Source: Isoetes taiwanensis
Lineage: Eukaryota > Streptophyta > Lycopodiopsida > Isoetales > Isoetaceae
Reading direction: 5' to 3'
DNA: 64,000 nucleotides
NCBI GenBank assembly: GCA_021234155.1
Contig: JAJEKV010000103.1
Span: 1,424,001 to 1,488,000 of the forward strand
In this document: positions 31,884 to 59,999 of the stretch, in pieces
Numbering within the stretch: the first letter of the stretch is position 1
Layout: every line of letters starts with the position of its first letter
Notes under the pieces: model-generated
The model's input: the letters and a program-made list of their open reading frames with translations, nothing else
What the model was told of the DNA's origin: nothing
Databases searched by the model: none
Program-made: the position numbers and the translations under genes

Positions 31884-33507
31884 TGTGACGCCCTCGCTAA
31901 ACATACTGGCGCCCGGCCGTACACACTGGCAGAAAATTCCCCGTCCGGCTCAACAACCGCCCGAGGCCCTCCGCCTATCCCGCACTATGGAACTCCCCAG
32001 AGTGCGGAAAGGGGACACAAGGTGTCTTGCGCCGCCCTTCCCTATGGGCTCCTATCACAAGGAAGCATAAACAACGTCAGAACTAGCAATAACAATACTA
32101 CATGCTACCTCGAAGGGTAGTCCATCCCATATCCATATGAACAAAGAAGATAATCATAAACCATAAAACATGAGAGGTCCTACCCGCCCGAACACGAAAA
32201 GGAAGTCGATATTTGGATAGGCCTCAAGATAGAGCGCGGCATCAATCATAACAATGGCGGGGCTGGCATAAGACAATGGCTAGGGTTGACCACTCCATCC
32301 GCCCCTCCCCGTGCATACTTTGCGGATGGGCTAGATCAAGGCGTGGCATGACTCTAACCTTCGGATCACGCAATCCCATGGCATCACCCATGGGACTACT
32401 CGAGGTTGCATCTCCCTCGGTCCGGCGAGGTAGGAAGGGTTGCATCTCCCCTTCCCGGGTCTAGAGGCTCCACAGGCTAGAGAATCGTGTCGGCACACAA
32501 TTCGTGCCGGACCGAACCCCCGAAACAAGAGCCAAGCTGACACTTGCAACTCTTGAGAGGCAGGGCGACACCATTGCCCCAGGAGGTGTCGGACCCATGC
32601 TCGGCCCACACGAAGTGACCGACCATAAGCCTAGCCCACTGTGGGATCCCCCGAAGCCCCCACTCGGCAGGGATCCACCCTCCGTCTTGCCTCTAACCCC
32701 GTTGTGTGGTGCTGAGTCACATCATAGCCTCCATAGCCCGGTGGGTTCCTATGCACAGGCCGCAACTAATAGGAACTAAGGGATCTACACTAGGAGCATA
32801 CTACATATGGCCCTAGGTCTCTACCCCCCTTCCCAACACAAGAGGAACAACATGATCAACCATCATCACCTAATCATCATGAACAATATCATATGAACAT
32901 CTTAACCTAATCATACATATCTAACTAACAGTTAGGGTTCCTTGATTAGGGTTCAAGATGTTCAACAAAGGATCTAGGGTGGCTCTACTCTAGACACAAA
33001 ATACTAACCCATCTGGAGGGCTAACTTCCAGATGAACTAACATGAACTCTACTCAACCTACCTCCTCCAGAAGCGCTTCCTCCCATCCCTGGCGTCTCCA
33101 TGCTCCTTGACGAGGTTCGAAGACTTGCTCCCTCAACGATCATACACACCTTCTAGGGGCTGCTGCTCCAGGCTAGGCTATGACGAACGGTGCTCGAAAC
33201 GGGGTTTCGGGCACGTAGATGAGAGTTCAGGGCTAGGTCAGGAAAAGAGGTCTAGGGTTAGGGTTAGAGCTAATATAGGTGTGGATGCCACGTGGCACCA
33301 CTAGGATGGGGCCGTGTGGCGGTTGCTCCAATAGGATAAGGCCATGTGGAAATGGGCCTTATCCTAAGGTTATCTAAGTTAAGCAATTAACTTAGATATG
33401 CACCCCTTGCCACTTATCCAAGGCATACAAGGCTACCTAGGTAGACTTGTATGGTGACAGTCCAGAATATATCGTATTTAGGGCGTATATTCCCTTGGAA
33501 CGTCACA
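31884..33507 (-). repeat. Chromovirus 3' LTR (left)
   Basis: Begins TGTGACG and ends CGTCACA, a 7-bp terminal inverted repeat. 1,624 bp, the same length as the partner at 43368. The open frames across it (for example 32504-32779) are not protein-like. It includes two copies of TTAGGG near 33253, which is not telomere. Confidence 0.9.
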
Positions 33508-34341: not shown

Positions 34342-35980
34342 CTAACCTCCTGGCAAGTCGGGGTCGACCAAGTCGGAGACGACTCGCCCATCAAACTCCT
34401 TCATAAACTCTGGGTATTGTTTCTCCAAATCCTGCTTCAATACCCATGTCGCGTCTTCCACGGGCAAGTGCTTCCACTTGACCAAATACTGGAGGAACTG
34501 AGACCTCCTAGTCTTCTTGAATGACTTATCAAGAAGTAACTCAGGCACAATTTCCACTTGCTCTTCCGTCATTTCCAACAAAGTTGGAGTATCCAAGACC
34601 TCCTCAGGGTTGGGATTGTGCCTTTTCAATAAACTTACGTGGAAAACCTTGTGAACTTTGAGATGGGCCGGAAGATCCAACTTGTAGGCTTGGGAGCCCA
34701 CTCTCTCCAAGATCTTGAACGGACCAGCCCACCTAGGGGCAAGCTTCTTGCAACTCCCAATCCGAAGCTTAGCTTGCTTGACCTTGATCTTCAACCACAC
34801 GCTATCGCCTACCTTGAACTCTCTTACGGTCCTGTGCTTGTCGGCTACACTCTTACGCCCGACTTCTTGCTAACGCTAGGAGGTAGCCCCTCACTTCTTC
34901 CACCAAGCTATTTGCATATCTCCTAGCATCTGGGACACACTTCAACCTTTGACCTTTGGATTGTGCCAAGTGTCCGGGGTTAAGCACTGGTACCCATAAT
35001 TTACCATGAAAGGAGACATCTGAGATGACTCTTGTTTGGCACTATTGTAGGCGAATTCCACTAAGTGGATGAACTCATCCCACTTGGATTGCTTATTCCA
35101 CACATAACCTCGAAGCATATCCTCGATGATGCGATTAGGTCCTCTCCGTCGACCATCCATGCGGATGATATCTTGCGTGCTCATGGAGAGCTTCGTCAAA
35201 TCGTGCTAAAAGGTCTTGCCAAAAGGCACTCATAAACTTGGAATCCCTATCTGAAATTATCTCCCGAGGCATGCCATGGAGTCTAAAAATCTCCTTTACA
35301 AATAACTTGGCAGTATCTAATGCGGTGTCCGTAGTTCTGCAAGGCACAAAATGTGCCATCTTAGATAACTTGTCTACGACAACCATCAATGCATCCTTGC
35401 CTCGAAGAGTTCTAGGGAGTCCGGTGATAAAATCCATACTTATGACCTCCCACTTAGCATTTGGCACTTGCAATGGCTCTAAAGCACCTGGAATTCGGAG
35501 CTGCTCCGCTTTGGTCTGCTGACACAACTGGCATTCACGAATATATCTGGCTATCTGTTTCTTCATCCCTGGCCAGAAATAACTACTTCGTATCTTGAAG
35601 TAGGTCTTCATAAACCCTGCATGCCCTGCTATTGGGCTGTTATGTGTGTCATGAAGAATTAGCTTCCTTACCCCTGATGATTCGGGCACACACAACTTAT
35701 GCTTATGATACAACAGGTTGCCTTCCTTCTTATAATGCTTGAAGGCCTCCCGTTCCTTATCTGTTCTAGCCTCTCTAGAAAGGCTTTCCCATACCTCCTT
35801 GAAATCCTCATCTAATGGCAGGGTCTCCTCAATCTTCTTTCCAAACTCACTCGAAAGAGTGGAAATCGCATTACAATGCGTTCTTGTCTCAAGCGGTCTT
35901 CTGGAGAGAGCATCTGCCACAACATTAAGCTTGCCGGGCTTATATACTATATCAAAATCATACTCTTCAAGGAATTCCAT
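34342..35980 (-). pseudogene. Chromovirus integrase with C-terminal chromodomain
   Basis: The frame starting at 35980 opens with the end of RNase H (FLEEYDFDIVYKPGKLNVVADALSRR). Next come the HHCC zinc finger (H-D-T-H-N ... CQLCQQTK), and the catalytic core with ISMDFITGLP and ISDRDSKFMSAFW (first and second D of the D,D-35-E triad). After a frame break near 35170 it continues through 34942-35199 (SAKQESSQMSPFMVNYG, past the Glu), then GPFKILERVGSQAYKLDLP. The chromodomain is YLVKWKHLPVEDATWVLKQDL (34380-34460). Chromodomains target insertion to chromatin carrying methylated H3. At least two frame breaks. Confidence 0.85.
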
Positions 35981-36031
35981 CCACCTCCTTTGCCTTAGGT
36001 TGAGGAGGTTGGGTGAAAAAATCTTGGAGGC

Positions 36032-37799
36032 TCACGGTGATCGATTATCTAACTGAAACTTCCTTCCCAGCAAATAATGCCTCCAAATCCTTAGTGCCCT
36101 GACAATGGCTAGGAGCTCCTGATCATGGGTTGGGTAGCGTTGCTCGGCGTCGTTCATCTTCTTCGAGTCGTAGGCGACTACCCTTTCTTCTTGCATCAAG
36201 ACTGCCCCTGTTGCTATCTTGCTTGCATCCGTAGCCACAAGCTTATCTTTACTTGGGTGCGGAAGGGCCGAGCCTTTGGAGCTGTTGTTAAGGCCTCCTT
36301 GAGCTTCTCAAAGGAAACTTGGACTTTCTCTAGCCAATGTACTCTCCAATCTTTCACCTTAACGCTCTTAGTGAGGTCCGTCAAAGGGGCGCCCACTTAG
36401 CAAAGTCCTTCACGAACTTTTCTACGTAATATCCCGCCAAACCCAGAAAGCTTCTTACCTCTGCTATATTCCTTGGAGCTGGCGGTCGACTCTTTGCTTC
36501 AATCTTTTTGGGGGTCGGTGGAAATCCCTTCCGCCCGATATTACATGGCCCAAGTACTCCACTCTTTGGGTAGCAAAGTGGCATTTGGAGAGCTTGCCAT
36601 ACAAGCGATGCCGTCTCAACTTTTCCAACACCCTTCTCAAATGCTGATCATGATCTTCAATGGACTTGTTTGTAGACTAGAATGTCGCCGAAGAAAACAA
36701 TGACAAACTCATCTAGAAAATCCCCCAAGGCGTCGTTCATGAGGCGCATAAAAAGTTTCTTTGGGCGTTCGACAACCCAAAGGGGCATTACTTTGAACTC
36801 AAAGTGACCATACCAGCGTTCTAAAGGCGGTCTTATGGATATCCTCTTCCTTTATTCTTATCGATGGTACCCACGACCTTAAGTCAATTTTTGAGAATAC
36901 CCTTGCTCCTTGGAGCTGGTCCATCAAATCATCGCCCCTTGGCAATGCATACTTGTTCTTTATCGCCCGCTTGTTGAGTCACGATAGTCTATGCACATTC
37001 TTAAGCTCCCATCTTTCTTCTTCACAAAGAGTATAGGTGCTCCAAAAGGAGACACACTTGCTCTAATAAACCCAAGCTCAAGCAATTTCTGGAGCTGCTT
37101 CTTGAGTTCTATCAATTCTGGGGTGCTCATCCTGTAAGGTGCCTTGCTGGTAGGCTTAGCATCTGGAGCTAATGTGATTTCACATTCTACACCCCTATAA
37201 GGTGGTAGTTGCCGGATTTCATCCGGGAATACATCCTTAAATTCTGAGATGAGCCTTGCTACTGGCCTGGGCAACTGATTCCCCTTTTGATCGCTTCCAT
37301 CCTGCTTATTGGGCTCAATTGCCACTAACCTCAAAATATAATCCACCTTATTTCTTTCTATACTTTTCCTTAGGTGCTTCAAAGAAATACACTGCATGGA
37401 AGGAGCTGCCTTCTTACCTTTCACTATAAATTTGGTGCCGTCCGGTGCCGTCATGGCGACTTCGTTGCGGTCACAATCAATCATGGCCTTGGCCGGCTTT
37501 AAGAATTCCATGCCTACTATAAGGTCGTACCTTCCAATTTCCATGACTTCTGCTCCCATCGGCCACTTACTTCCACTAAGGTCTATATCGAACGTGATCC
37601 TCCTCCCCTTAGTGTGTCGAATGGCGCCGTTTGCCATAGCAACTGGCCTTGGCTTAGACTTCAATACCTTATTCTTCATTAGGGCAGCCAGCCTGGGAGA
37701 GGCGAAGTTATGAGAGCTACCTGTGTCTATGAGGACTACATATGGATTACTATCTATGATCCCATCAGCCGCAATGACATTGGTGATCCTCAATATCAC
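36032..37799 (-). pseudogene. Chromovirus protease, reverse transcriptase and RNase H
   Basis: Minus strand from 37799: aspartic protease VLIDTGSSHNFAS (37710-37740); RT fingers YRMSTPELIELKKQLQKLLE, GFIRASVSPFGAPILFVKKK and LRMCIDYR (36990-37140). After frame breaks the palm reads GDFLDEFVIVFFGDILVY (36675-36730), where the usual F-x-D-D box has Gly in place of the first Asp. RNase H is MATDASKIATGAVLMQEERV ... QRYPTHDQELLAIVRAL (36100-36238). Several shifts around 36240-36960 break the RT. Confidence 0.85.
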
Positions 37800-37899
37800 G
37801 ACTCAATGTTTGCACATATATGACACTCACCATCTATGAAGTCCTGGGCCTCATCTTTGGTCGTCGTCCTCATCCGCTTCCGTTGGTGAATCCCAATCC

Positions 37900-39250
37900 A
37901 TAAAAGCTCTGCCAAAGGGCGCTTTTGCATGACGAATGGGCAAGCGTGTGTTCGGTGCCCCGGGCCGGAAGCACACGAAACAAAGCTTCTTCTCGATACA
38001 CTCCTGTCTCTTCTCTTTTAATCCGGACTATCCGGGATACGCTTTAGCACACGCCCCGATGCATTCGTGGCTTCACGGTCCCCAAAGGTCTTACCACGAG
38101 CTCTTCCCCGCTTCTTTGGCCTCGATGGCGTAGGCTGGCGATTGCTTACTCACGGTATTGCCCTTGATGCTTGCCCGAAGCTTTACCCTTGAAAGCCAGA
38201 CTGTTTCTCTGGCGGAGTTGGTGGTGCTTCCTCAAACTTATAGCTTTGTCTTAAACCGCCCGCTTGACTTTGGGTTGATTGCTCACGACAAGCCTTTTTG
38301 ATATTCTTTGTTCAACCCTTGATGTAGGTATCAACCGCTTGCCTTTACGATACTCAGGGAACATGGAGCTGAGCCGCATGAATTCCTCCTCAGATACTTT
38401 GCTCACCGACAATGTACCCTGGTTCAACCTATAGAACTCAGCGGATCCGCTTTCGCTAGTGTGCGATCTTGGCACATAGTGCTTGCGAAAGCCTTGCCGA
38501 GGTCTTGAATCAAATTGTTTTTTTTGAGCTTGTTAGACTTGGCATAACCTTTCCACCGATTCTAGCTGCTCCTATCAAGTTTGCTTGTAGCAACTTTCCC
38601 TATGTCCTTGTCCTTCATGCTATAAGAGTTGCCAAATTCCTCCATTTCGTCAAGCCATGCTTCTGCTTCCATGCCTGACCTATCCTTTCCTGAGAACCCA
38701 CCCAACTTCCTAGTCTTCCACACATTGCTCATAGCACCGCTAACCTTCTTCGATAGTCATCCGCCTTCCTTGCCTCGGCTCTTACCTGCTTGGAGGTCTG
38801 ACTCACTTTCGAGCTAGAACCTGCCATGGTATGCGGAAGTGTCTTGATGAGTGGAGCTAGGTGGAGTTGGAGATCTTCTGTTTCTCCTTTTCCTTTTCCT
38901 GTCTCTGACATTCCCCTGATTGTCTTGTCCCTCCTGCTGTGGGCCTTCTTCAATGCCTTGTTGGGGTAATGGTGGAGGTGGAGGTGGTGCAGGTGCGTAT
39001 TCTTGGGCATTCATCAATGGGGTGGCCCGGTGGATCGATTGATGCATCGATTCCTCATCCCGAGCGAGCCTTGCATTGATTGCTTCAGGCGTCATTTCCT
39101 CGTTGATGTCATCCTGATCACGTCCGAATAGGTTCCTGGGTACCCACTGATGCTGTCGGCCCTGGCCTTGGGAACCTGAGCCGGTGTTCCTTGCTGCAAG
39201 GATTGATCACCAATACTTGTTATTTGGTTTACACATGAATTATATCCGTT
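37900..39250 (-). pseudogene. Chromovirus gag polyprotein region
   Basis: Begins about 39190 with QWVPRNLFGRDQDDINEEMT and PEAINARLARDEESMHQSI. A Pro/basic linker follows (PPPPPPLPQQG, DRKRKRRNRR). The capsid-like part has SGKDRSGMEAEAWLDEMEEF (38640-38690), then SAEFYRLNQGTLSVSKVSEE and EFMRLSSMFPEYRKGKR, the Retrotrans_gag signature. The zinc-knuckle region (~37950-38050) is degraded: Cys-rich but not a clean CCHC. Multiple frame changes. Confidence 0.75.
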
Positions 39251-39429: not shown

Positions 39430-40259
39430 TCTTGAAGAAGTTCTTGATTTTCTTGAATGTTGTGCCCTTGCCCATGTTACGCAGGGATTACGGCGCCGAT
39501 CCTCCCTCCAATGCTCTTGCTACACATGGTCTTTGGGAGTTGGTGTCGTTCTTTGCCACTCACCGACAAATGTGCATCCCTGAGGTGGCCCCTGGCGAAG
39601 TCGAGGCAGTGAAGAGCTACTGATCTCTTGAAAAGGATGACATGGTCCGATTTGTGGTCGGTCTCGGCGTCTTTGCCCAAAGCCGAGAGGGCTATGAGGG
39701 CCAATGAGACTCTTCTCCTCTTGGGCTAAACTCCTGTGGAATACTATCATCGCCCCTTGGCTAAGAGGCGGAAGATAGTATCGGCGCCTTGCCTTTACCC
39801 GTGATGTTGGACCCCATTGCCTCTTACGCGTTTGCTTCCCCATAGATGTCTATTGCTACGAGGTCTTCGTGGTCCCTCCACATTGTGGTAGCGTTCTCCA
39901 AGTTGATGTTGGCATGTGCCTCACGCGAACTCATGGAACGGACCGGTCGGCTAGAGCTTGGACCTCTTCCTGGCTTATACAATCTGCTTTGTATCTGCTG
40001 GAACTCCTCCTCTGGGATGACAGGTTCTTGTTGTCGATAGATCTCCCTTATCTGCTGATAGGCTTCTATATCGACATTGTGCCCTCGCGTCTGAGTGTCG
40101 CTCAGATAACTCCCTTGGAAATTCCTGGTAGGAGTAGTCAATGAAGTCACCGCCCTGCTCTTGTGCGACTAAGCCTAGGAGCTCGTCGATTCTGAGGCCT
40201 TCTTCTTGGCACTGGGGAAGGTTGAGGATGTCGTTAGCCAAGATGTACTCCTCGGCCAA
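39430..40259 (-). CDS. Accessory frame 3 of the chromovirus, unknown function
   Basis: Two overlapping frames cover 39824-40259. They read AEEYILANDILNLPQCQEEG + LRIDELLGLVAQEQGG, then YQQIREIYRQQEPVIPEEEF + QQIQSRLYKPGRGPSSSRP and a stop at 39824. A further minus frame (39430-39820) ends with a basic tail (GKGTTFKKIKNFFKRHR). It is the probable continuation of the 40323-40923 frame, separated by one or two shifts. No family recognised. Confidence 0.4.
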
Positions 40260-40322
40260 ATGATCCTTTGGTGGCAGGGCTGTGATGCCAAGTGGTGGTT
40301 GAAATCTAGCCTCAATGTGCCT

Positions 40323-40923
40323 TCACCTAGCTATTTCCCTTTCCATCCTTGCTGCTTCCCTTATTTCTCCACTTGGGTTCTCTTCCACTTGTTGCTCGTA
40401 GTCTTGCTCCATCTGCAGCATGGGTGTTGCCGAGGTGAAGCCATAGTACTCGTACTCCGTGGATTCGATTTCGTGGATCCTGATCTGCTCCCTTCGGGTG
40501 TTGAGAGGTGCTAGATCTAAGGGCATGTATTGACTCCCCTGGTTGGTTGGACCGCCTTGTCTTTGCATGAACAAAGCTAAGGCTGCTTGGTTTGAGAGGT
40601 ATCTGTGCCTATGATACTTACAGGTCATGTAGTCTGGCATGCTTCTGGTTCTATCCCACACCCTATTCTTGGCCTTAGCTCCCCCACCTATGGCTTGGGT
40701 CAGAGAGTCTAGAGAAACCCATTTCCCTCCCCTAGGTGGCAAGCTAACTTCCCAGGGTAGTATCTGTTGGTCATATTGGCAAATGATGTCGGTGTAATAG
40801 GGAGTCCTAGTCAATGTAGCGTGCAGATCAAAGAGGTGATCGAAGACATGGAAAGCTTGGTCGGCAGGGAATTCACGGATGTGGTTGGCGGCGTCATACC
40901 ATCTGACAAAGTTTGAGGGCGCC
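40323..40923 (-). CDS. Accessory frame 2 of the chromovirus, unknown function
   Basis: The frame opens at 41024, but the likely start is the ATG at 40923 (MAPSNFVRWYDAANHIREFP). A TATA-like TATAAAAGG at 41033-41041 lies about 110 bp before it. The protein has an aromatic N-terminal half (PYYTDIICQYDQQILPWEV) and a charged C-terminal half (EQDYEQQVEENPSGEIREAA), and lacks a recognisable gag or env domain. It lies between the H3-tail frame and gag. Confidence 0.5.
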
Positions 40924-41032
40924 ATTGAGCAGAAAAGAGTGTAAAAAATGGCTGTTGAGGACGGGCAGGGAGCTAGAAAATCGCCAAAGGGGCTGAGAGC
41001 AACTTTGATGTGAGAAAATGACAAATGAGGGC

Positions 41033-41041: not shown

Positions 41042-41228
41042 GACTAGGGGTGCCTCGGGTTCCGTGCACAAGGGTTCTTGATGTGGAAGGACTTTGTTCA
41101 TAGGCTAGGAGTGTCCAAATGAGCTATCATGAAGTGCAATTCTAAGCAAAACAAAGCAAGAAACACTACATGGCAGGTTGCTGGGTCAAAATTGGTCAAA
41201 CTAGGCCAAAAAGGGCCAAATCGGGTCA

Positions 41229-41279
41229 GTCCGCGCAAAAGGGCCTTCCGAAACTGTCGGAAAGGGGTTTGGCGCGGAC
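41229..41279. repeat. 51-nt hairpin, copy 1
   Basis: Outer stem GTCCGCGC (41229-41236) with GCGCGGAC (41272-41279); inner stem CCTTCCGA with TCGGAAAGG, one bulge. An almost identical hairpin starts at 41420. Both are followed by 'aaacccggtttcg', itself a short palindrome. Confidence 0.75.
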
Positions 41280-41419
41280 AAACCCGGTTTCGCGATTTTC
41301 GAAGTGATTTTGACGAATTTTTGACGTTGGAAAGATCCTAACATGACTAATTGATCAATTCTAGCCTAGCATGCAACTTTTCTTGAGCAAAATGGACACC
41401 TATAGGCGAAATAGGGTCA

Positions 41420-41470
41420 GTCCGCGCGAAATGGCCTTCCGAAAGTGTCGGAAAGGGGTTTGGCGCGGAC
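41420..41470. repeat. 51-nt hairpin, copy 2
   Basis: Outer stem GTCCGCGC (41420-41427) and GCGCGGAC (41463-41470), inner stem CCTTCCGA / TCGGAAAGG. It lies 191 bp from copy 1, between accessory frames 1 and 2. The stems are retained while the loop differs slightly, as expected for a folded RNA or protein-binding DNA. Confidence 0.75.
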
Positions 41471-42066
41471 AAACCCGGTTTCGGATTTTTTTGCTCAGAA
41501 GAAAAATTTTCCTAATTAGGGGTAAGATAATTGAACTATTACAAGCTAGATACAAAAATTTTTAGTACAATTTGACTTTTGTAACTACCTTTTTATCATC
41601 AATTTTTCAAGACAAGAATTATATTATACCAAAATTTTAGTTACAGGTACAAAATTAGGAGGTTTAAGGGTACTCCTTGCGGATCCTTCGCGCCAAGTAG
41701 AGGTCCTTGGGCATTACGGTCACCCTCTTGGCGTGAATTGCGCATAAGTTGCCCTCCTCAAAAAGCTGGGTCAGCTCTGCCGGGCTGCCACCACGGGGAC
41801 CCGTAATCGTCGAGATGTCACTCTATAGTCTGTGATTTAACTCCTGCATGATTTCCCGCATCAGGCTCGAAGGAGCCTTCTGATCGGGGAGATTAGTGCC
41901 TTCTTTGGAAGTGCTTAATCTCCCGGCAGCGGGCATCGGCGTGAATTAGGCCCATGGTGGACCTTCTTGGCTTCCTGCCGGGCGTGGAAGTGGTGGTTTC
42001 GGCTGGTCCTTCTTGGTAGGCCGCCCTTGGCGTATGGCGCTCCGCGTTACGTTTTTGCAATACCAA

Positions 42067-42786
42067 TCATTGTACCTCGTCCAGCGACGGAGGTACTCCT
42101 GGTATGCCTTCAAGCGGCGCTTGAATTACAGCGATCCTCTTGGGCGCGAATGCGCTTCGCCCACCTTCCCGCTTCTTGATTACCTTGGTGGCTTGGGCCA
42201 CTTTGGGTAGGGTAGGCGTCGCGTGGGGGCCTGATGGCTCCCCAACGTCTTCCTCCTCTTGCTCCTCGCCACCGCCGCCTTCTTCTTCCTGCTCTTCCAC
42301 ATCTTCTTGTCGGGGCCGAGGTTCCTCAATCACGACAGTCCCGCGAGGCCTGTCGTTTCTTCTCTTGGTTCTCCGCTCCTTCTCGAGCAGCTCCCTCAAC
42401 CTCTTCTTTCTTGCCGCCGCTTCCTCTGGCCACTCTGCGACCTTCTCCTTGCCCTTTTTCTTTGGTGCGGAAGGGCCTGCTTCTTGAGTTTGGTGCTGGG
42501 GCTGCTCTTGATCTCCCTCCTGCTGCTCCACCTCCGTATCAGAAGAGGCACCAAAATGGCGGGATTCGCCGGTTCTCTGGGTGCCCGCCGACGAAGAACT
42601 ACTGCCAGATCCCCCCTCCTCAGCGTCATGGTAGGTCGCGTCGCTGCTGCTGGAGGGAAACTCCTCTTCGCCTGGCTTCGGCCGAAGGTGCTCGGGGACC
42701 TTCTTGACGTGCCGCCCTGCTGCCTGCGCCATGGAGAGGGTGGGCCTAGTGCCAGGTTTCCTGTAGGTTTGCTTGGTTCTTGCCAT
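42067..42786 (-). CDS. Accessory frame 1 of the chromovirus with histone H3 tail mimic
   Basis: A 239-codon intact frame starting ATG at 42786: MARTKQTYRKPGTRPTLSMA, then AAGRHVKKVPEHLRPKPGE. Histone H3 begins MARTKQTARKSTGG, and its tail ends with VKKPHRFRPG. Eight of the first nine tail residues after Met match, and the VKK-P-H-RP order recurs, as if the middle of the tail were deleted. The rest is low-complexity: Ser/Glu runs, a basic segment (KKRLRELLEKERRTKRRNDR), and a Glu-rich stretch. There is no histone fold. It lies just after the primer site, before gag. H3 capture or convergent mimicry is inference; the match itself is directly visible. Confidence 0.65.
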   Translation of the reverse strand: MARTKQTYRKPGTRPTLSMAQAAGRHVKKVPEHLRPKPGEEEFPSSSSDATYHDAEEGGSGSSSSSAGTQRTGESRHFGASSDTEVEQQEGDQEQPQHQTQEAGPSAPKKKGKEKVAEWPEEAAARKKRLRELLEKERRTKRRNDRPRGTVVIEEPRPRQEDVEEQEEEGGGGEEQEEEDVGEPSGPHATPTLPKVAQATKVIKKREGGRSAFAPKRIAVIQAPLEGIPGVPPSLDEVQ

Positions 42787-42874: not shown

Positions 42875-42883
42875 TATTTAAAA
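42875..42883 (-). promoter_or_regulatory. TATA-like box before the H3-tail frame
   Basis: TTTTAAATA on the minus strand, about 90 bp before the ATG at 42786. With the box at 41033, two accessory frames each have a TATA-like motif at a similar distance. Confidence 0.35.
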
Positions 42884-43354: not shown

Positions 43355-43366
43355 GCTCTGATACCA
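43355..43366 (-). other. Primer binding site (tRNA-iMet)
   Basis: Minus-strand TGGTATCAGAGC lies one base inside the 5' LTR. It is the classic complement of the 3' end of plant initiator methionine tRNA, which primes minus-strand synthesis. Confidence 0.9.
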
Positions 43367-43367
43367 T

Positions 43368-44991
43368 TGTGACGCTCCTCAGCTAAACATCTGGCCGGTG
43401 AGTACACTTTCGGCGAAATTCCCGTCCGGCTCAACAACCGCCGCAGGCCCTCCGTCTATCCCGCACTATGGAACTCCCGTAGTGCGGAAAGGGGACACGA
43501 AGGTGTCTTGCGCGCCCTTCCCCTATGGGCTCCTATCACAGCGGAAGCATAAACAACGTCAGAACTAGCAATAACAATACTACATGCTACCTCGAAGGGT
43601 AGTCCATCCCATATCCATATGAACAAAGAAGATAATCATAAACCATAAAACATGAGAGGTCCTACCCGTTTCGAACCACGAAAGGAAGTCGACCGGCCCG
43701 GATAGGCCTCAAGATAGAGCAGCATCAATCATAACAATGGCGGGGCTGGCATAAGACAATGGCTAGGGTTGACCACTCCATCCGCCCCTCCTGTGCATAC
43801 TTTTGGATGGGCTAGATCAAGGCGCGGCATGACTCTAACCTTCCGGATCACATAATCCCATGGCATCACCCATCCGGGACTACTCCGTGTTGCATCTCCA
43901 CTGGTCCGGCGAGGTAGGAAGGGTTGCATCTCCCCTTCCCGGGTCTAGAGGCTCCACGGGCGGTTAGAGAATCGTGTCGGCCACGATTAGCACCCGACCG
44001 AACCCCCGAAACAAGAGCCAAGGCGACACTTGCAACTCTTGAGAGGCGGACGACACCATTGCCCGGAGGTGTGGGACCCATGCTCGCCCACACGAAGTGA
44101 CAGGCCATAAGCCTAGCCCACCTGTGGGATCCCCGAAGCCCCCACTTTCGGCGGGGATCCACCCTCCGCCTTGCCTCTAACCCCGTTGTGTGGTCTTTGA
44201 GTCACATCATAGCCTCCATAGCCGGTGGGTTCCTATGCCTGACCGCAACTAATAGGAACTAAGGGATCTACACTAGGAGCATACTACATATGGCCCTAGG
44301 TCTCTACCCCCCTTCCCAACACAAGAGGAACAACATGATCAACCATCATCACCTAATCATCATGAACAATATCATATGAACATCTTAACCTAATCATACA
44401 TATCTAACTAATGGTTAGGGTTCCTTTGATTAGGGTTCAAGATGTTCAACAAAGGATCTAGGGTGGCTCTACTCTAGACACAAAATACTAACCCATCCGG
44501 AGGGCTAACTTCCGGATGAACTAACATGAACTCTACTCAACCTACCTCCTCGAGGCGCTTCCTCCCATCCTGGCGGCGTCTCCATGCTCCTTGACGAGGT
44601 TCAAGACTTGCTCCCTCAACGATCATCATACACACCTTCCGGGGCTGCTCCTCCAGGCTAGGCTATGATGAGCGGTGCTTTCAAACGGGTTTCGCACGTA
44701 GATGAGAGTTCAGGGCTAGGTCAGAAAAAGAGGTCTAGGGTTAGGGTTAGAGCTAATATAGGTGTGGATGCCACGTGGCACCACTAGGATGGGGCCGTGT
44801 GGCGGTTGCTCCAATAGGATAAGGCCATGTGGAAATGGGCCTTATCCTAAGGTTATCTAAGTTAAGCAATTAACTTAGATATGCACCCCTTGCCACTTAT
44901 CCAAGGCATACAAGGCTACCTAGGTAGACTTGTATGGTGACGGGTCCAGGAATATACGTATTTAGGGCGTATATTCCCTTGGAACGTCACA
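43368..44991 (-). repeat. Chromovirus 5' LTR (right)
   Basis: 1,624 bp, TGTGACG...CGTCACA. AT-rich segments are base-for-base the same as the left LTR. Differences cluster at CG/CCGG-rich spots, for example ccatctgg/ccatccgg and ttccagatg/ttccggatg, with small indels near 43680-43705 and 44680-44695. Confidence 0.9.
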
Positions 44992-45394
44992 GGTAACTTT
45001 GATGGCAGAGAAGAAAATGGTGGGTGGAAAATTAGATGAATTCAAAGTAGCAGTAACTGAATTCACGAAGTCGTTTATACAAGCATGGGAAGAATGCAAT
45101 GTCACACATTACATTCATATACTTCATGCCCATGGCTTGTGGTTTGCCAAAGAGTACGGGAGCTTGGGAATATGGAATACGCAGGGAATGGAGAAGTCAC
45201 ATAAGCAAGCCAAGAATGCTTTTTTCAGATTCACACAACATCGAGGTTCGTGTGGTAACTCATTGCAACAGATGTGCCAATGGTTCTATAGAAGGATTAT
45301 CTGCAAGCTAGAGAAAAAAGATAAAGCTAAACAAGACACGGCGTTGGCTAGAATATTGAGGAGAAAAGTTGAGCGGGGAAAAAAAAAGAAATGA
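44992..45394 (+). pseudogene. Transposase-like gene, 3' part, after the chromovirus
   Basis: A frame of 131 codons to TGA at 45394: MAEKKMVGGKLDEFKVAVTE, then SFIQAWEECNVTHYIHILHA, LWFAKEYGSLGIWNTQGMEK and SHKQAKNAFFRFTQH, with a Lys-rich tail. The pattern H-x-H ... GSL ... QGMEKSH recurs in uncharacterised eukaryotic transposon proteins. It continues the gene seen at 29.6-31.88 kb on the same strand. Confidence 0.5.
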
Positions 45395-45699
45395 TATGGT
45401 GTAGCTCTGAGTGCGGCCCAGACAAGTTAAAGCGTTAGCGATCCACAAGGATCGCGAGGGTAGAAGATATACTACGGGGTTTCAATTGTATGAACAAATT
45501 CATATTAATGTATAACTATTGACCATGATGTGCAACTATAATCTTTCAAATATGTTAGGTTGGCGTGGGCGCGGTGCGAACTTAGTTGGTATTCAATTGA
45601 TGAATGACAAGTATTACGCGCCAAGTAATACCTCTTGAATGAAGATTGGGAATTAGTTATAGATTAAGCGCTATTCGCACGACGCGGTGCGAAAAGCAT

Positions 45700-46380
45700 T
45701 TGTTTCGTGGCTATCTTTTGCCGTTTTTTACGCGGTAGCAGCGGTACTCTTTATATAATTATCTTTGTTATCGATGTTTATGCGCTTTTGATATTTGTTC
45801 TAAGTCATTACATTGCATATTTATCAATCTTGTCCACTCATTTGTTGCATTACAGTTCAGAGACAATGACCGCGAATAGCGGTAATGCGGATCTAACAAT
45901 CCCGGCAACCAAAAAGAGAAGAGAGAGGCGCCGTGCGGGCGCCACATCATGGGGGAAGACAGCGAGGCCGGCGCCACTAACTATGTCGATGCTTCTAACA
46001 ACGAGCGAGCTCCCGTCTTCCGGCGAGAAAACATCCATCAAGCGATCCGGGCGGGCCGTAGTTGAAATGTTGCCAATGAGGCCCGAAGGAGATTTTTAGA
46101 GACATACCTTCCGAGCCAAAGGCGTGTTTACTGTTCTCTTACGGCCATTTAATGAGGAGAAGGAACCTTTGTGCAGGCGGTTATGCATCATGGAGTTCCT
46201 GTGCCTAATGATTACATCGTTATTACTTGTCGATGTGGTAGTTGCACCGAACCGCGATTTACTGTTCCTTGATGGGGCCCGACAACTTGCTTGAGGCACT
46301 CCATTCCTTCCCGTCGTGTGGCCCGGGTTGATGGCTTCTTTGTGCGCCAACAATAGGAACATTCTCTGTCTTGGCTAATG
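45700..46380 (+). other. Short frames of unknown nature
   Basis: A plus frame to 46099 holds a basic stretch (PATKKRRERRRAGATSWGK), and shifted frames follow to about 46370. No family recognised. It could be the 5' part of the gene that contains the H3-like domain, broken by shifts. Confidence 0.25.
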
Positions 46381-46408
46381 AGATAGATTACATCACCCGG
46401 ACTTCCTC

Positions 46409-46714
46409 GTGGAGTGCGGAAGTTGGATTAGTGGAGATAAACCGGGGGCGAGTTTGCTTGGAGCCGACAATGAGAATGCTAAGCCCCATGAGGATGACCA
46501 TCGGGATGTGCATGTCCAGAATGTTCCTCTTGCTGTTCAGAATGAGGATGTGCCTGTCCAGACCGTTCCTTTTGCTGTTCAGAATGTATTTCAACCCCTG
46601 AATGTTATGTACCAGGGTGTCCCTATCCAGGTCCCTGTGACAGCTCAAATCGAAGAAAATATCGTTCTACAAGAGGCAGCTGCGGTACACATTCGGTTGT
46701 ACACGAAACCGTAG
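46409..46714 (+). CDS. Short frame with internal PVQNVPFAVQN repeats
   Basis: 101 codons with three imperfect repeats: VHVQNVPLAVQNED, VPVQTVPFAVQN, VPIQVPVTAQI. Unknown family. It overlaps, in another frame, the start of the H3-like coding stretch, so it could be its upstream exon or a frameshifted N-terminal part. Confidence 0.3.
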   Translation: MECGSWISGDKPGASLLGADNENAKPHEDDHRDVHVQNVPLAVQNEDVPVQTVPFAVQNVFQPLNVMYQGVPIQVPVTAQIEENIVLQEAAAVHIRLYTKP

Positions 46715-47212
46715 TACCGACATCTGATGTAGTGGTTCTCGTTGTTGAGCAGCCTTTAGAGGTCGCGGAATCCGATGAGCGTAAGAGGAAGACTAAACCT
46801 AAGCAAAACTTGCGGAAGAAACATGTTCTCTGTAAAGGCCATCCTAAGCTGAATAAGAAGGGCCAGCCGTTTAAGCCAAAGTATAGATGGATTCGGGAAA
46901 TCCGGCACTTTTAGAACCACGTGGAGTGGGTGCTTCCGAAGCTCACAATGGCTAGAATATGTAAGGAGGTGGTTCAGGAGAGATACATTAAGGTGAAGAG
47001 GGATGGTGTAAGGTACCGGAAAGCTGGTAGAAGTTTTCCAATGCCAGAAGAGGTGACTCGATTCACTGCAGATGCCCTTGATGCTCGCGACGAGGCCATT
47101 TGAGAATCACATGGTCGTTCTTCAAGACCGTGTGAAATGTCTTTGTGCATTCCAAGAGAGTGACAATAATGAGGCAGGATATTGCCTTGACAAATTACTT
47201 CCGAGGCATGTA
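46690..47212 (+). pseudogene. Divergent histone H3-fold protein (CENH3-like?), broken
   Basis: After a basic tail (KRKTKPKQNLRKKHVLCKG) the frame reads PFKPKYRWIREIRHF, TAG, NHVEWVLPKLTMARICKEVV. This aligns without gaps to the H3 region RFRPGTVALREIRRYQ...ELLIRKLPFQRLVREI: the REIR box, Glu, KL, Arg and E-V/I all fall in register. The TAG at 46912-46914 sits where H3 has Gln. Downstream, ADALDA ... EAIENHMVVLQDRVKCLCAF resembles H3 helix 2 ([20 protein letters not shown]), but needs a one-base shift near 47100, in a TTT run. Loop 1 is much longer than in canonical H3; a longer loop 1 is a CENH3 trait. Helix 3 is not recognisable. Confidence 0.5.
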
Positions 47213-47484
47213 AAGTGTTTTATATTAATGAAACGATCTTTGTTGTATATTTTGTTTGCTTGCTAAGTATTTTGATGGTATCTATTCTCTATGTATATTT
47301 ACAATGCACCATTGCCACGGTGCGAAATGGGTGTAAATTACTTTGTGAGGGTTAGGTATTTTACGTGAGTGGCCACGGTCTTGAAAATTCTATGAAGTTA
47401 CTTGTGTGAGGCGGGCAATTTGCACCTTGGCCCGCGGTGCGAAATTGAATCATTCCATAGAAGGTGAATCACAAGATCAAAGGG

Positions 47485-47552
47485 AACATATTAACATATT
47501 AGAGAATATATTAACATATTAGAGAACATTTAGAGAACATATTAACACGGTA
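47485..47552. repeat. Short AT-rich tandem repeat
   Basis: Three imperfect 'aacatattagaga' units. From 47270 to 48040 I see no coding sequence apart from three palindrome copies. Confidence 0.6.
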
Positions 47553-48044
47553 TCATATGAATTATGTATGATAGATAGCAAGTAACGGCAGTATGTCCAA
47601 GTAACCTTCCCCTAGGTTTCTAACCCCTTCCCTTCCCTTCCCTGCGGGGTAACACACGCAACGGTTAGGGAAACCCGAGCTCACGCCATATCCCAAACTG
47701 ATTCTTCCCACCATATGGGATACCTAGACATTAGAAAAAAGTAATTCCACATGATGATACTCACGGAAGAAGAGCGGACCCAACTCCACAAAACCGTTGT
47801 ACTTTCGTTGTAGTACGCCCTAATAAGGCCATACATACATCCTTACAAATTTCATGAATGAACTACGATATGTATTGATCCGAAGAGTGTGCTAAATAAC
47901 CAAACGAAGAAGAGGCCTCAAGCTGGCTGTAGCATCTCGTCCGGATAAGGAGGGGTTCAAGAATTCCCCCTCATTGCAAGCCTCCTATAACATTCGGATG
48001 GATTGATTTCCATCGGCTCATGACCACAATCAAATCGCTCGAAT

Positions 48045-48480
48045 GAAGTTGATCAACTCCATTGCAAGCTCCTTGGTGGGACCGTGGTGCAACCTCCACT
48101 CCAAAAATGGTCAAATAGCTCATCGGTTTGGGCCGCCACAGAATATCCGGGGCATGCTTGCGAGCCTATACAGGAGTGGCCCGGGGAGGATTCGGTCCAA
48201 TCATTTGCAAAAAGCACGAAGATCAAGTAGCAAAGAACAAGGAGCACGAAGATCAAGTAGCAAGGAGCATCAAGATCAAGTAGCAAGAAGCAAGGATCAA
48301 GGACGATCAAGGAGCAAGAAGATCAAAAAACAAGGAAGATCATGGAGCAAGGAAGCAAGGAACAAGATCAAGTAGCAAGATCAAGAGCAAGGAACAAGAT
48401 GAAGTAGCGAAGAACAAGCATCAAGATCAAGTAGCAAGGAACAAGGAAGACCAAAGACCAAGAAGTGAAAGCAAGGTGAA
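48045..48480 (-). pseudogene. Unknown gene piece plus purine-rich minisatellite, copy A
   Basis: Plus-strand nucleotides 48045-48215 align with 49228-49390: 'ttgatcaactccattgcaag' vs 'ttgatcagctgccttgcaag', 'gcatgcttgc', 'catttgcaa'. Coding runs on the minus strand, where copy B keeps a better frame. It is followed at 48215-48480 by 'agcaagaagatcaag'-type repeats, which translate to low-complexity frames. Confidence 0.5.
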
Positions 48481-48642
48481 AACATGGAACAAAGGTGAGA
48501 AGTGAAAGCAAGCTGAAAGAATTTATAATGTTGAAGTATAATACTAATACTGTTGAAGTATAATACCAAGAATGATGAAGAATAATACCAATAATGCTGA
48601 ATTATTATACCATTCGGTGGTGGTAACAAAACGGGATCTACG

Positions 48643-48672
48643 TATTTCGCACCGTAGCCACGGTGCGAAATA
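48643..48672. repeat. Best copy of the palindrome: 13-bp arms, 4-nt loop
   Basis: Arm TATTTCGCACCGT (48643-48655), loop AGCC, arm ACGGTGCGAAATA (48660-48672), a perfect inverted repeat. A second, inverted-loop copy follows at 48701-48728. Both lie past the stop of the minus-strand frame ending at 48835. Confidence 0.85.
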
Positions 48673-48834
48673 GGCCCTTCAATAATTTGTAACTGAAGCG
48701 ATTTCACACCGTGGCTACGGTGCCGAATATGACCACAAATAGAACAATCACATGAAAAAATACAAGGAAAATGGTAGAAGATATCATTCAATTACACTAA
48801 AAAATGGAGTATCTTTACCTGTGATATGTCCGTA

Positions 48835-49615
48835 TTATGTGCTGTGTGATATGTAGCCATAGGTCACGTGTATCCCAAGGAATTGTATCCCAGGTGGGGA
48901 ATTTAGACGTAACCACAGGATGTTGAAGTCAAGGGAACGGAATAGGAGCTTACCAATATCCACAAAAGATTTGTAATGGAAGTCGTAAAGTTCAATGAGG
49001 ATATAAATCCTATTCTTCTCACTAGTAGGAATGGCCGTGAGGCACATCTTCGATCCAGAGAGTAGGCCATGAAACCATGGAAAAGCATGTCCTTCAAACC
49101 GTTCTAGCCTATCTTCTAAACTGAGGGGGTTCAAGAAGTCCCAAAGCACTTAGAGTGAACCTTGCTTGACTCGAATTGATCTCCCTCAAAGGAGGGAGAT
49201 GACGAGTATAGCGATCGATAATGAAGTTGATCAGCTGCCTTGCAAGCTCTGTGGTTGGACCGTGACGCCATCGATGCTCCCAAAAGTTGCTAAAAAATTC
49301 ATCAAAAGTGCACGTATTTCTGCCGCATGCTTGCAGGTATTCCGGATCAGCCCAGCGAGGATGTTCTTGCAAAGTTACCATTTGCAAGAAATTAGTGGAG
49401 CGGAGACAAGAAACAACTAGTGGAGCGCATGGGGAGGCAAGGAGCATGCAAGAAAGGAGTAGACGAGGGGAGGCAAGGAGCCACAAGAGGCGGACAGGGA
49501 GGCAAGGAGCAAGCAAGAAGCAGACAAAGAGGCAAAGACAATGAAGGCATAGATGCCTATTTAAAGAGAAATCAGGTATATATGCTATATACGTACGATC
49601 AAGTTTGTAGCTCAT
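48835..49615 (-). pseudogene. Unknown gene, copy B, with TATA-like box
   Basis: Minus frame: after a low-complexity Leu/Cys/Pro start come FLQMVTLQEHPRWADPEYLQ, GRNTCTFDEFFSNFWEHRW and TTELARQLINFIIDRYTRHL. A frame change near 49120 leads to LERFEGHAFPWFHGLLSGSK, LTAIPTSEKNRIYILIELYD and LLFRSLDFNILWLRL, with the stop at 48835. A TTTAAATAGG box (~49556-49565, minus) precedes the coding part. Paralogous to 48045-48215. No family recognised. The shift may be an intron or an error. Confidence 0.5.
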
Positions 49616-49675
49616 GTAGCATAATGAGTACCATACAAGTATGTATATGATCCAATAATTTCTATGTATATACCA

Positions 49676-49727
49676 TCAATAATTTTGGCGGGTATATACC
49701 ATCAATAATTTTGGTGGGTATAAATAT
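49676..49727. repeat. 26-bp tandem duplication
   Basis: 'ataccatcaataattttgg' + 'cgggtat' repeats at once with one C/T difference. Confidence 0.8.
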
Positions 49728-50122
49728 ACATCAAATTGCCGAAAAGCAACATTGGCCTCCGTCTAGCCATGTGGTCTCATTCTCGGTCCCGAACATGATT
49801 CCATTACCCACCAAGATGAATCACTTAAAACTTCAAGCAAAGTGTCGCGAGCGAAAATACCCATGGAAGACCCCGGATGTCCACCGCCGCTCTCAATCCT
49901 CGCTATTATCCCGATCCCTTCGATGTTATCATCCATCTAATATGGAATAGAGAGCATCAAATGTACATGATAGAAAAGATCAACTGGGGTGCTCGGTGAC
50001 AATGACTCGGGAAGAGTCCCCTAAATCAATACTTGTCATCCGGATCATATTGTCAATACTTATTTGAAGAGTTCATGATCGTGTACTTTGTACATTATGC
50101 TCGTATATATAACCAATAATCT

Positions 50123-50532
50123 TTGCTTTCAAATTGCATGTCAATAATTTTGTTCGATATAAGTACGGACTCCATTCAATGCAGAAGGCATCCATTTGCT
50201 ATGTCTCGGCCTGGTTATTCTTATTACAGGGGGTCTACCTTGCCTCCTCGTCCCGAAGCTATAGACTCAATTACTTGCACTATGAAATATAATGATATTT
50301 ATAGATGTTCTCGGAGAGGTATCCCCTTGATCCCTGGCTGGAAGGAGTAACGCAGAGGGTCGAAATCATTCTTCCAACGGGGTTTATCGTGTTGTTATCC
50401 ACCTTCATCGGGTTCCAGAGCGTCACGTCTATGAGATTAATCGCATCACTCAACTACACCGCTCATGATGATCCCGGACATTATAATGACCTTCCGCATT
50501 TATGTATGTTATGCCTCTTATATGAGTTCTAA
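50123..50532 (+). pseudogene. Conserved unknown coding piece, paralogue of 26.6-26.9 kb
   Basis: MSRPGYSYYRGSTLPPRPEA, IDSITCTMKYNDIYRCSRRG and IPLIPGWKE; then, in the next frame, QRVEIILPTGFIVLLSTFIG, FQSVTSMRLIASLNYTAHDD and PGHYNDLPHL. The two frames overlap at 50305-50350, so one shift separates them. The minus-strand copy at 26.6-26.9 kb shares the same order of motifs. Function unknown. Confidence 0.5.
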
Positions 50533-50539
50533 ATTACAT

Positions 50540-51005
50540 TTACTAGAATATTTCAGACATTAAAACTAGTTATAAGTATGTAACCATAAGAGATAGATAC
50601 ATATGATCCATCTATTTACCGCACATTTTCAATTTGGAAAGCTCTTGGCCATTTTCCTTACATGTAGATTCTAAATTCGGATAAGCATTCTCTTAGCGAT
50701 TATTATTGTAGTCCGCGGTGCAAAATTGCACACTCCAAAAAGCGTTGGGCTGCTATTTTTGGCTTAACTGGCGGCGGTCTTGAAAATAGACCTTCCCACG
50801 TGAATGTGGAATAGTCATTTTCCCCACCGTAGCCCGCGGTGCGAATATTGGTTAGTTGTAAAGCTGGGACAACCGCGGTTTTTCGCACCGTAGCCCCACG
50901 GTCTAAGTAAAATATAAGCGTAAAACAAATTAAAATGAAACGCAAGTTTATGTTCGATATAACAAGATTAGAGATTTCAAACAAGTCTTTGCATTAATTG
51001 ACAAT
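50540..51005. other. Convergent intergenic spacer with four palindrome copies
   Basis: Lies between the plus-strand piece ending at 50532 and the minus-strand gene ending at 51008. Palindrome copies sit at 50709, 50771, 50824 and 50879. No other structure seen. Confidence 0.5.
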
Positions 51006-51007
51006 GG

Positions 51008-53010: not shown

Positions 53011-53229
53011 AAAAAACCTGATCGCCTAAAAGTAAGTGCCTGCGAGCTCACGGCGCGAAACTAAAATGTCTTAAGTGTCCTGATGAGAAATATGTCGCAT
53101 CGTGGCCACGGTGCGAAACAAATATAAACGCCAAAGACAACAATCGTTATTTGCACCGTACCGCGGTCGCGATATTTTTAGAAAAGAAGGCCAAAATTAA
53201 GTTAACTACAAAACATACTACCAAGTGCC

Positions 53230-58690: not shown

Positions 58691-59999
58691 TAAAAAAGGG
58701 GGGAAATAGGGCGCACAGCTGGATACGTAACAACCTTATAACAACCTAACAGAAACCATTAAGTTCGGTTTGCTAAGATTAAGTTCGGTTTCCTAAGAAA
58801 CCGAGGTTAATTAATGGTTGGGTGATACGTGGCGGGTTTTGGAGGTACCAAGTGTACGGGGGAGACGTAAGCGTGACGTACATGCCAGGCAGGCGAAGAA
58901 ATTATGCGGGATATAATGGGGAGGGATAAAAAATAAATTGAAAATAATATTAAATTAAATTGAAAATAATATTAAATGAATTGAATAAATAGCAACTAGC
59001 AACGCACGCGCCATGACCCACCAACTTCGAAAAGGGCCCACCTAAACGACCGGCAACGGCCCGAACGTATAACCGCTATCCTCTGCGGGTAGAGAAAAAA
59101 GGTCCTCTGAAAAAGGGCGAAAAGGAACGGGGGAGGATTCTGGGCCCGAAGAGGATCGGGCGCCAAAATAATAGGCGGGGTTTTCACGTGAGGCGGATTA
59201 GGGCCAGGCTGGCAGCCAGGCTGTTTTCTTCCGTACGGGGGTACGGCCGGGCCGGGCCTTTTCCGACATTCCGTGTGCGGGGGGCCCATTCAGGATGGCC
59301 ATTTGAACCTGGCCATTTCTGCGCCATGGCCACGCCAGCCCAGAGCCAGCCACCCAGGCTGTGGCCCATTCCATTCCATACCATACCCCCCCCTGGGTTT
59401 TTTGAGTTTGTCGCTATGGAGGGAAGAGCCTTCGCCGGACCTTGGCTTCCGAGGCGCCGGCCTTGCCGTGCCCCTCCCTCTCCTTTCTCGCCCCCCCTGC
59501 TTTTTTTTCTCCCCCCTCGATCTTCCCTGTAATTCTTGCATTCCTTCAGAATTTCTTCCCTGATTATTCTGCATTTCTATCAATCTTTCTCCCCTGATCT
59601 TTCTCCCCTCAGAAACTCATCCTTGGATCAGCTTCTTTCGCTCAAATCGCATTAAATCGGAAGGCGGTTTCCGTTTTATTACCCCAATCCTCTGTTTCTT
59701 TGTGCAAAACTCATACCCTGCTTCAGAAATCCAAAGCTTGATTCCTTCCTTGATTTTTCCTCTCTGAGTCACTGTGTCATTTGTACAGAAAAACTTGCTT
59801 GATCAATCCTCTTCTTTAGACCTCCCCGATTGGCTGCATCCGGAAGCCTGTCTCCGACCTTGAATTCCTTGTGCAAAAGCTTTTTAGATCGATCTTTTCA
59901 TATTTATTCAAACAGTAGGGTTTTGGGCAGTTTGGGTAGATCATCAAAATTGGAAGAAGTACTGCGTTCGTGGAGGAACAGGGAAATCGGTAGTGGGCG
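58690..59999 (+). promoter_or_regulatory. MYB gene upstream region and probable 5' UTR
   Basis: Contains a repeated 'taagttcggtttgctaag' / 'taagttcggtttcctaag' (58759, 58782) and an AT-rich direct repeat 'ttgaaaataatatta' (58937, 58962). A GC-rich zone follows at 59000-59500, then a pyrimidine-rich leader (CT runs 59470-59620) typical of plant 5' UTRs. The frames at 59188-59583 on both strands are composition artefacts. No clear TATA box. Confidence 0.4.

Follow-up and report, generated by a model that had tools for sequence, protein, structure and literature searches.

The stretch of DNA analysed here, 64,000 nucleotides of contig JAJEKV010000103.1 of Isoetes taiwanensis (the window), carries on its minus strand a retrotransposon that has the features of a Ty3/gypsy chromovirus, namely LTRs, a tRNA primer site, a protease, an RNase H and an integrase with a C-terminal chromodomain. 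The 5' LTR (43368..44991) and the 3' LTR (31884..33507) have TG...CA ends and are 92.7% identical over 1654 columns, with 61 mismatches and 49 gap openings; a purine-rich tract lies just before the 3' LTR and the pair is flanked by a 5-bp repeat (AGTAA / GGTAA) that matches at four of five positions. The sequence TGGTATCAGAGC (43355..43366), located 3' of the 5' LTR, was read as the primer binding site and we take it to be of the initiator tRNA-Met type. It is followed by a TATA-like box, TTTAAATA (42875..42882), upstream of a gene with similarity to histone H3, whose first part (42070..42786) contains the tip, a variable tail and a charged linker and whose last part (41664..41945) contains the H3 histone fold. 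Between this gene and a second accessory ORF (ORF B, 39827..40925) there are two 86-nt repeats (41405..41490 and 41214..41299), with predicted hairpins of -40.5 and -43.9 kcal/mol, respectively, and a match to the TATA-like motif CTATAAA is found at 41042, 5' of ORF B. The rest of the element comprises a gag region (38254..39206) named by its position and by reading, with no Pfam match, an aspartic protease (36963..37802; Pfam RVP_2, E 1.3e-8), the remains of a reverse transcriptase together with RNase H (36035..36978; RVT_1, E 0.0057, below the cut-off, and RT_RNaseH, E 9.3e-24), an integrase (35138..36031; Integrase_H2C2, E 2e-20, and rve, E 2.5e-8) and the integrase C-terminus with the chromodomain (34345..34869; SH3_Tf2-1, E 1.2e-23, and Chromo, E 1.1e-11). 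All of these features are on the minus strand. This copy is a damaged one, as gag-pol is split into separate open pieces, gag itself is interrupted, and so are the H3-like gene and ORF B. Rfam searches gave nothing above the gathering scores, and no tRNA was found. Among the viral contigs scanned there was no relative of the element. The prokaryote contigs scanned yielded one integrase relative (L001, contig CAKZGI010000018.1, 4.6 kb), a gypsy integrase 38% identical to that of the window and filed under an uncultured Trichormus metagenome-assembled genome, which looks like eukaryote DNA in a cyanobacterial bin.

A first-pass annotation of this DNA had described an intact frame of 239 codons starting with MARTKQTYRK. 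The start is real (MARTKQTYRKPG) and its strand, which was not given there, is the minus strand, with the ATG at 42786; the plus-strand reading of 42067-42786 contains stops. The start has nine of the ten residues of MARTKQTARK, a match for which the expected number in all six frames of the window is 1.3e-6, so that the proposed likeness to H3 goes beyond chance. The open stretch in which it lies extends over 251 codons from stop to stop, a length that was reached by none of 1000 shuffles of the leader-plus-gene region and by one of 1000 shuffles of the ORF region alone. The frame is not intact, as it is lost around 42.13 kb, and the H3 fold follows further downstream, in another frame and with a stop inside. 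Because of this downstream fold, the 42067-42786 ORF has to be considered the front part of a broken H3-like gene. The stretch 41822-41664 ends in the last third of the fold, with a match to Pfam PF00125 (E 2.8e-11, 41667-41822) and to H3 chains of the PDB from E 3.5e-13 over the same 41667-41822, and tblastn of plant H3 gave E 1.2e-17 for this last part of the gene. A frame-aware alignment to H3 residues 9-133 reached a score of 174, with 54 of 123 residues identical, the first third of this alignment being K/R-rich and possibly spurious; 800-base control tiles taken from both strands of the window, minus the two H3 loci (n=311 of 318), had a mean score of 28.3 (s.d. 4.5) and a maximum of 50. 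A chance origin of the start, the frame and the fold was ruled out by the expected matches, the shuffles and these tiles. The annotation had also proposed a second block in common with H3, VKKVPEHLRP compared to VKKPHRFRP, and this did not hold: its score was equalled by 35% of 5000 shuffles of residues 11-60, and a segment resembling VKKVPEHLRP, with at most a putative likeness to H3, recurs in related copies. With regard to the two lysine contexts said to be preserved, that of Lys4 is exact in the window copy (ARTKQT); that of Lys9 retains R8 and K9, with A7 replaced by Tyr and S10 by Pro. In place of the tail mimic standing alone that had been suggested, the gene corresponds to a histone of the H3 type in which a long insert separates the tip from the fold.

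The N-terminal ORF gave no match in the protein database at E 1e-3, and the 3' part, translated in one frame with X at the stops, gave nine matches. One of them, P0005, is a protein of 449 aa from a 2,390-base ENA contig; it begins like H3 (MANTKMTKRK), reaches an H3 fold after a very long linker, and showed no BLASTP similarity to the N-terminal 300 residues of the retrotransposon H3-like family. P0005 used as query returned 4,236 proteins, and the 120 listed, to judge from their names, identities and coverage, are apparently ordinary H3 domains in other gene models.

The host genome (1,658,258,908 bases in 1,110 contigs) was searched with the 52-residue C-terminal piece of the fold. A total of 150 of 6,623 candidates were scored and all 150, the window copy included, match at E 4.5e-17 or better; at least 38 copies (38 of the 150 scored) are in open frames no shorter than 294 codons. 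As the H3 piece was the query for all copies, element members without the gene are outside the sample. We read 20 of the 38 long-frame copies: in 17 a single uninterrupted frame of 361-385 aa runs from MA(R/Q)TKQT to the end of the fold, and in the other three (L013, L014 and L020) there is no in-frame tip start. As selecting long frames favours intact genes, 21 short-frame copies (49-170 codons) were read too, six of them returned with the search and fifteen taken in listing order, not by their N-terminus. At least eight of the ten residues of MARTKQTARK are kept in 16 of these 21, with all ten in 11 and fewer than eight in five, as counted solely by a ten-residue scan. The annotation had asked whether related elements keep the ARTKQT start and, according to these counts, they do, exactly or nearly so, in 17 of 20 long-frame copies and in most of the short-frame ones. 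The existence of this family rules out a one-copy accident, and the same position of the gene in the copies read rules out a processed pseudogene that landed in one element. Judged from sequence, the window copy is a broken member of a multi-copy family.

In the copies read, the H3-like gene is located between the 5' LTR and gag. Of the 20 long-frame copies, 19 have the LTR of the window upstream of the gene, 17 have the exact primer site, 18 have ORF B downstream, 15 a gag piece and 16 the protease (in one of them at 31% identity). The downstream stretches of five copies contained the integrase, the chromodomain and the 3' LTR in four cases and none of them in L045, so the chromodomain that the annotation had placed on the integrase is present in the window and in four of five downstream pieces, where it is 93-98% identical to that of the window. 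The LTR distances of the four copies with two LTRs were 0.015, 0.021, 0.023 and 0.040 substitutions per site. Both the gene order and the tip are common to most of the related copies, in agreement with the idea of an accessory ORF of a chromovirus that carries an H3 tip. Furthermore, the TTTAAATA box is found 96-100 nt before the ATG in all 17 readable copies, and CTATAAA follows the H3 stop in 15 of 17, at 585-673 nt in 12 of those; from these consensus boxes, the H3-like gene and ORF B may well be transcribed separately. Two exact stem words of the 86-nt repeats co-occur in two of the 17 related copies (L011 and L012). ORF B is open over 520-573 codons, stop to stop, in seven of 20 copies (5206-6897 in L011 and 5306-6946 in L022); it gave no Pfam match at the curated cut-off in two copies and no PDB match in the one compared, and the structure prediction of a piece of it had a pLDDT of 38.

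The protein has the same layout in the 17 readable copies, with a tip like that of H3 followed by about 230 aa (221-244) of charged linker and then by a gap-free H3 fold. Residues A1, T3, K4, Q5, T6, R8 and K9 of the tip are present in all 17, R2 in 16 and A7 in 13, and 12 have the full MARTKQTARK. Ser10 is kept in none of them, and F, A, P or T is found instead (Phe, Pro or Thr in 13 copies). The stretch of the H3 tail that contains Lys14, Lys18, Lys23, Lys27 and Lys36 is absent from the 17 copies, which have in its place the variable tail and the linker. The linker has roughly equal amounts of D+E and K+R and carries basic runs; the acidic segments that the annotation had noticed are therefore real, and they are mixed with basic ones. 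The fold aligns without gaps to residues 44-135 of plant H3 in all 17 copies, with 53-56 of 92 residues identical, and it contains 49 columns that are invariant and equal to H3 and 25 that are invariant and differ from it. Two readable copies matched Pfam Histone at E 5.2e-28 and 5.6e-30, and PDB H3 chains matched one readable copy from E 5e-29. The residues that we take to form the H3-H3 interface (C110, H113, R116, D123, L126, R129 and I130) are kept in 17 of 17 copies; among those that are presumably in contact with DNA, R63, K64, R72, R83, K115, R116, T118 and K122 are kept in all 17, and R49 and R69 in 16 each. Position 56 is Q instead of K in 16 copies, and S57 is replaced by C and K79 by V in 17 of 17, changes that could weaken nucleosomes. 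By homology of both fold and tip, the protein is an H3-type histone.

Plant CENH3s also start with MARTK, and a CENH3 origin was considered for this reason and for the fold residues HFQ and TNL. It was rejected, as the alignment score was 257 to H3 compared to 150-193 to three plant CENH3 sequences that served as approximate references; moreover, there is no loop 1 insertion in the retrotransposon H3-like fold. The alignments thus point to canonical H3, rather than CENH3, as the probable source.

The H3-like gene is under strong purifying selection in the copies read. Pairwise NG86 estimates over the 136 pairs of the 17 readable copies gave a dN/dS of 0.120 overall, with a dS of 0.93. By parts, the ratio was 0.045 in the first ten codons (codon bootstrap 0-0.129), 0.182 in the next thirty, 0.164 in the linker, 0.096 in the RWTRYNDWYC block, 0.091 in the segment before the fold and 0.034 in the fold. 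The tip, for which a check of constraint had been proposed, is thus well below the overall figure. When the fold columns were read in the two wrong frames, dN/dS rose to 1.78 and 11.8, and the differences per site in the fold were 0.066, 0.014 and 0.349 for the first, second and third codon positions, respectively. Pairwise dS is high (median 1.0, maximum 3.1), which makes the ratios of distant pairs rough. The seven pairs with dS below 0.4 have an average whole-gene dN/dS of 0.16, a value that is above the overall one and that indicates that the low ratios are not just an effect of saturation. A ratio of 0.03 in the fold cannot be produced by the selection of long frames alone. In the short-frame copies, pN/pS of the tip was 0.196 (in the 18 of 21 with at least six of the ten tip residues).

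The chromodomain of the element was aligned to a stretch of HP1 that served as an approximate reference. The equivalents of Tyr24 and Tyr48 of HP1 are missing and that of Trp45 is the sole cage residue kept. As far as described in the accessible text of two papers, plant group II chromodomains are likewise without those aromatics and their ligand is called unknown, and fusions of group II chromodomains with fluorescent proteins localise to heterochromatin (PMC3350952; PMC12786077). Because of the localization of these fusions, the chromodomain of the element may, by analogy, recognise some histone mark. The more specific proposal of the annotation, that the tip could bind the chromodomain of its own element, is not favoured by the missing Tyr24 and Tyr48 equivalents, as in the plant group II type.

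Plants silence retrotransposons largely via histone H3 marks and DNA methylation. Replacement of H3 is the simplest reading of the H3-like gene because the surfaces that form the nucleosome and the Lys4 tip have been kept and most of the sites for silencing marks have been dropped. We propose that a canonical histone H3 gene was taken up by a Ty3/gypsy chromovirus and has been maintained as an accessory gene between the 5' LTR and gag of the element, and that the H3-like protein would be made from its own short transcript, would be carried into the nucleus by its basic runs, would pair with host H4 and would be built into nucleosomes in place of H3. Such nucleosomes would show the Lys4 tip and have Gln at position 56, and they would be devoid of the Lys14-Lys36 segment and of Ser10; in this way, the DNA of the element, either as new cDNA or as integrated copies, could gain chromatin that is poorly marked by host silencing. 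We consider it reasonably probable, and no stronger than that, that this is a captured and selected H3 accessory gene acting as an H3 replacement on element chromatin. The wider version, according to which the element family supplies its own H3 variant from its own promoter, replaces host H3 with this variant, in which the Lys4 tip is retained and the residues bearing silencing marks are lost, and writes its own chromatin state, is put forward only tentatively. R8 and K9 are as conserved as K4 (17 of 17), which is unexpected under a pure escape from Lys9 silencing.

The same protein could act as a soluble decoy whose H3 tip, and possibly whose fold, would occupy host readers, writers, chaperones or demethylases, and thereby weaken silencing or direct the complex of the element. 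Apart from the fold, no part is better conserved than the tip (dN/dS 0.045); the 221-244 aa of charged linker that separate it from the fold suit a bait or a chaperone-like binding, and 25 fold columns are invariant and yet unlike H3. However, the fold is the most constrained part of all (0.034) and conserves the presumed interface and DNA-contact residues, none of which a pure tip decoy needs, and we see this role as rather unlikely. A role in packaging or transport, in which the protein would condense or accompany the nucleic acid of the element (in the virus-like particle, the cDNA or the pre-integration complex) and link it to chromatin independently of silencing, would fit the basic runs in the linker and the place of the gene upstream of ORF B and gag in most copies read, but it offers no reason for the H3 tip to be kept, and we regard it as improbable.

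The two remaining possibilities seem to us much less plausible. That the protein is a tail mimic and nothing else, intended for the chromodomain of its own element, would take advantage of a conserved tip and of a chromodomain encoded in the same element, of a group that goes to heterochromatin in the published fusions cited above, and yet the tip is followed by a complete H3 fold and this chromodomain has no equivalents of Tyr24 and Tyr48. Moreover, the residue after Lys9 is Phe, Pro or Thr in 13 of 17 copies, and ARKA, which fits the G9a motif as quoted in PMC10611923, is found in only four of 17, the motif being mammalian and the host a plant; we therefore hold this alternative to be highly improbable. 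Finally, a captured H3 copy without function, carried as a passenger, would be in line with the broken state of the window copy and with the capture of host genes by LTR elements reported in plants (in the part of PMC7264820 available to us). Against it there is a dN/dS of 0.12 overall and 0.03 in the fold, with the frame controls, in copies that are deeply diverged (median dS 1.0), so we give it hardly any credence. Gene conversion with host H3 is not expected to be the origin of the constraint because 25 invariant columns of the fold differ from H3. A many-copy retrotransposon with an H3 of its own under selection would represent a new way for a mobile element to act on host silencing, and annotation that relies on the H3 domain alone could register genes of this kind as histone variants of the host.

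The capture of a histone H3 gene by a mobile element, followed by its multiplication, has a precedent in fungi, in which H3L genes captured by hAT DNA transposons are described, as far as the consulted sections go, in Pyrenophora tritici-repentis (PMC3538342) and in Pseudocercospora fijiensis and relatives (PMC6710886). According to the same sections, the N-terminal tail of the Pyrenophora copies carries insertions and there are ESTs for them (PMC3538342), and the Pseudocercospora copies are inactivated (PMC6710886). Unlike those genes, the one described here belongs to an LTR retrotransposon, with LTRs and gag-pol in the place of terminal inverted repeats and a hAT transposase, and the order of the genes around it does not vary in the copies read; it also has a long linker and has remained under strong purifying selection in copies that diverged deeply from one another. 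An extra ORF in the internal region is also a property of plant Ty3/gypsy elements, in which additional ORFs (aORFs) and captured domains have been found; some of the acquired domains are active, as is the case for the m6A demethylase present in Phalaenopsis elements (PMC7264820 and PMC9289625, in the portions seen). A screen of 121 angiosperm genomes found 15 extra domains, and its main text, as far as available, names no histone (PMC9289625); a search for the term 'histone' in PMC7264820, which deals with plant aORFs, gave no occurrence. The H4 of bracoviruses is a case of a core histone encoded by a virus; it enters host nucleosomes and, by means of its tail, changes gene expression, according to the accessible text of PMC5423620. 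Unlike our element, the viral histones such as bracovirus H4 belong to DNA viruses in the parts of these sources consulted (PMC5423620; PMC9145170), and neither 'retroelement' nor 'retrovir' occurs in the viral histone review PMC9145170 in a term search. Histone tail mimics, as outlined in the accessible parts of PMC10611923 and PMC9768651, share with our protein a short H3-like motif outside ordinary histones; as the motif forms here the N-terminal end of a protein that has an H3 fold, we consider it a divergent histone rather than a mimic. No report of an LTR retrotransposon with a histone gene was found in the open-access literature, as far as titles and the first lines of abstracts indicate.

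Some 2 kb beyond the 5' LTR, at 46855-47207 of the plus strand, there is a second, broken H3-like fold. Aligned to H3 residues 36-132, it shares 38 of 96 residues and has a frame-aware score of 96; its last piece matched Pfam Histone at E 0.0031, below the curated cut-off, and its middle piece gave no Pfam or PDB match. This fold is not a copy of the retrotransposon H3 gene, since it is closer to H3 (score of 85) than to the fold of the retrotransposon gene (62) and about 21 additional residues are found in its loop 1; it fits H3 and CENH3 sequences used as approximate references about equally (90 vs 84-90). The gene to which it belongs possibly starts from about 45869, with a long upstream part, and the fold lies downstream of a plus-strand frame that matches RAG1 weakly (Pfam E 0.043, below the cut-off). 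This locus may be another mobile element with a histone, and the chromovirus may have inserted into a gene of another mobile element, of which the plus-strand stretches 30238-31883 and 44992-45391 would be the two sides, the right one bearing the RAG1 match. The word GGTGCGAA / TTCGCACC recurs nine times in 45573-53110, which suggests that another repeat element lies on the right side of the chromovirus. The plus strand also has, in keeping with a plant host, a long open frame at 59994-61106 in which Pfam recognises two Myb repeats (E 8.9e-39).
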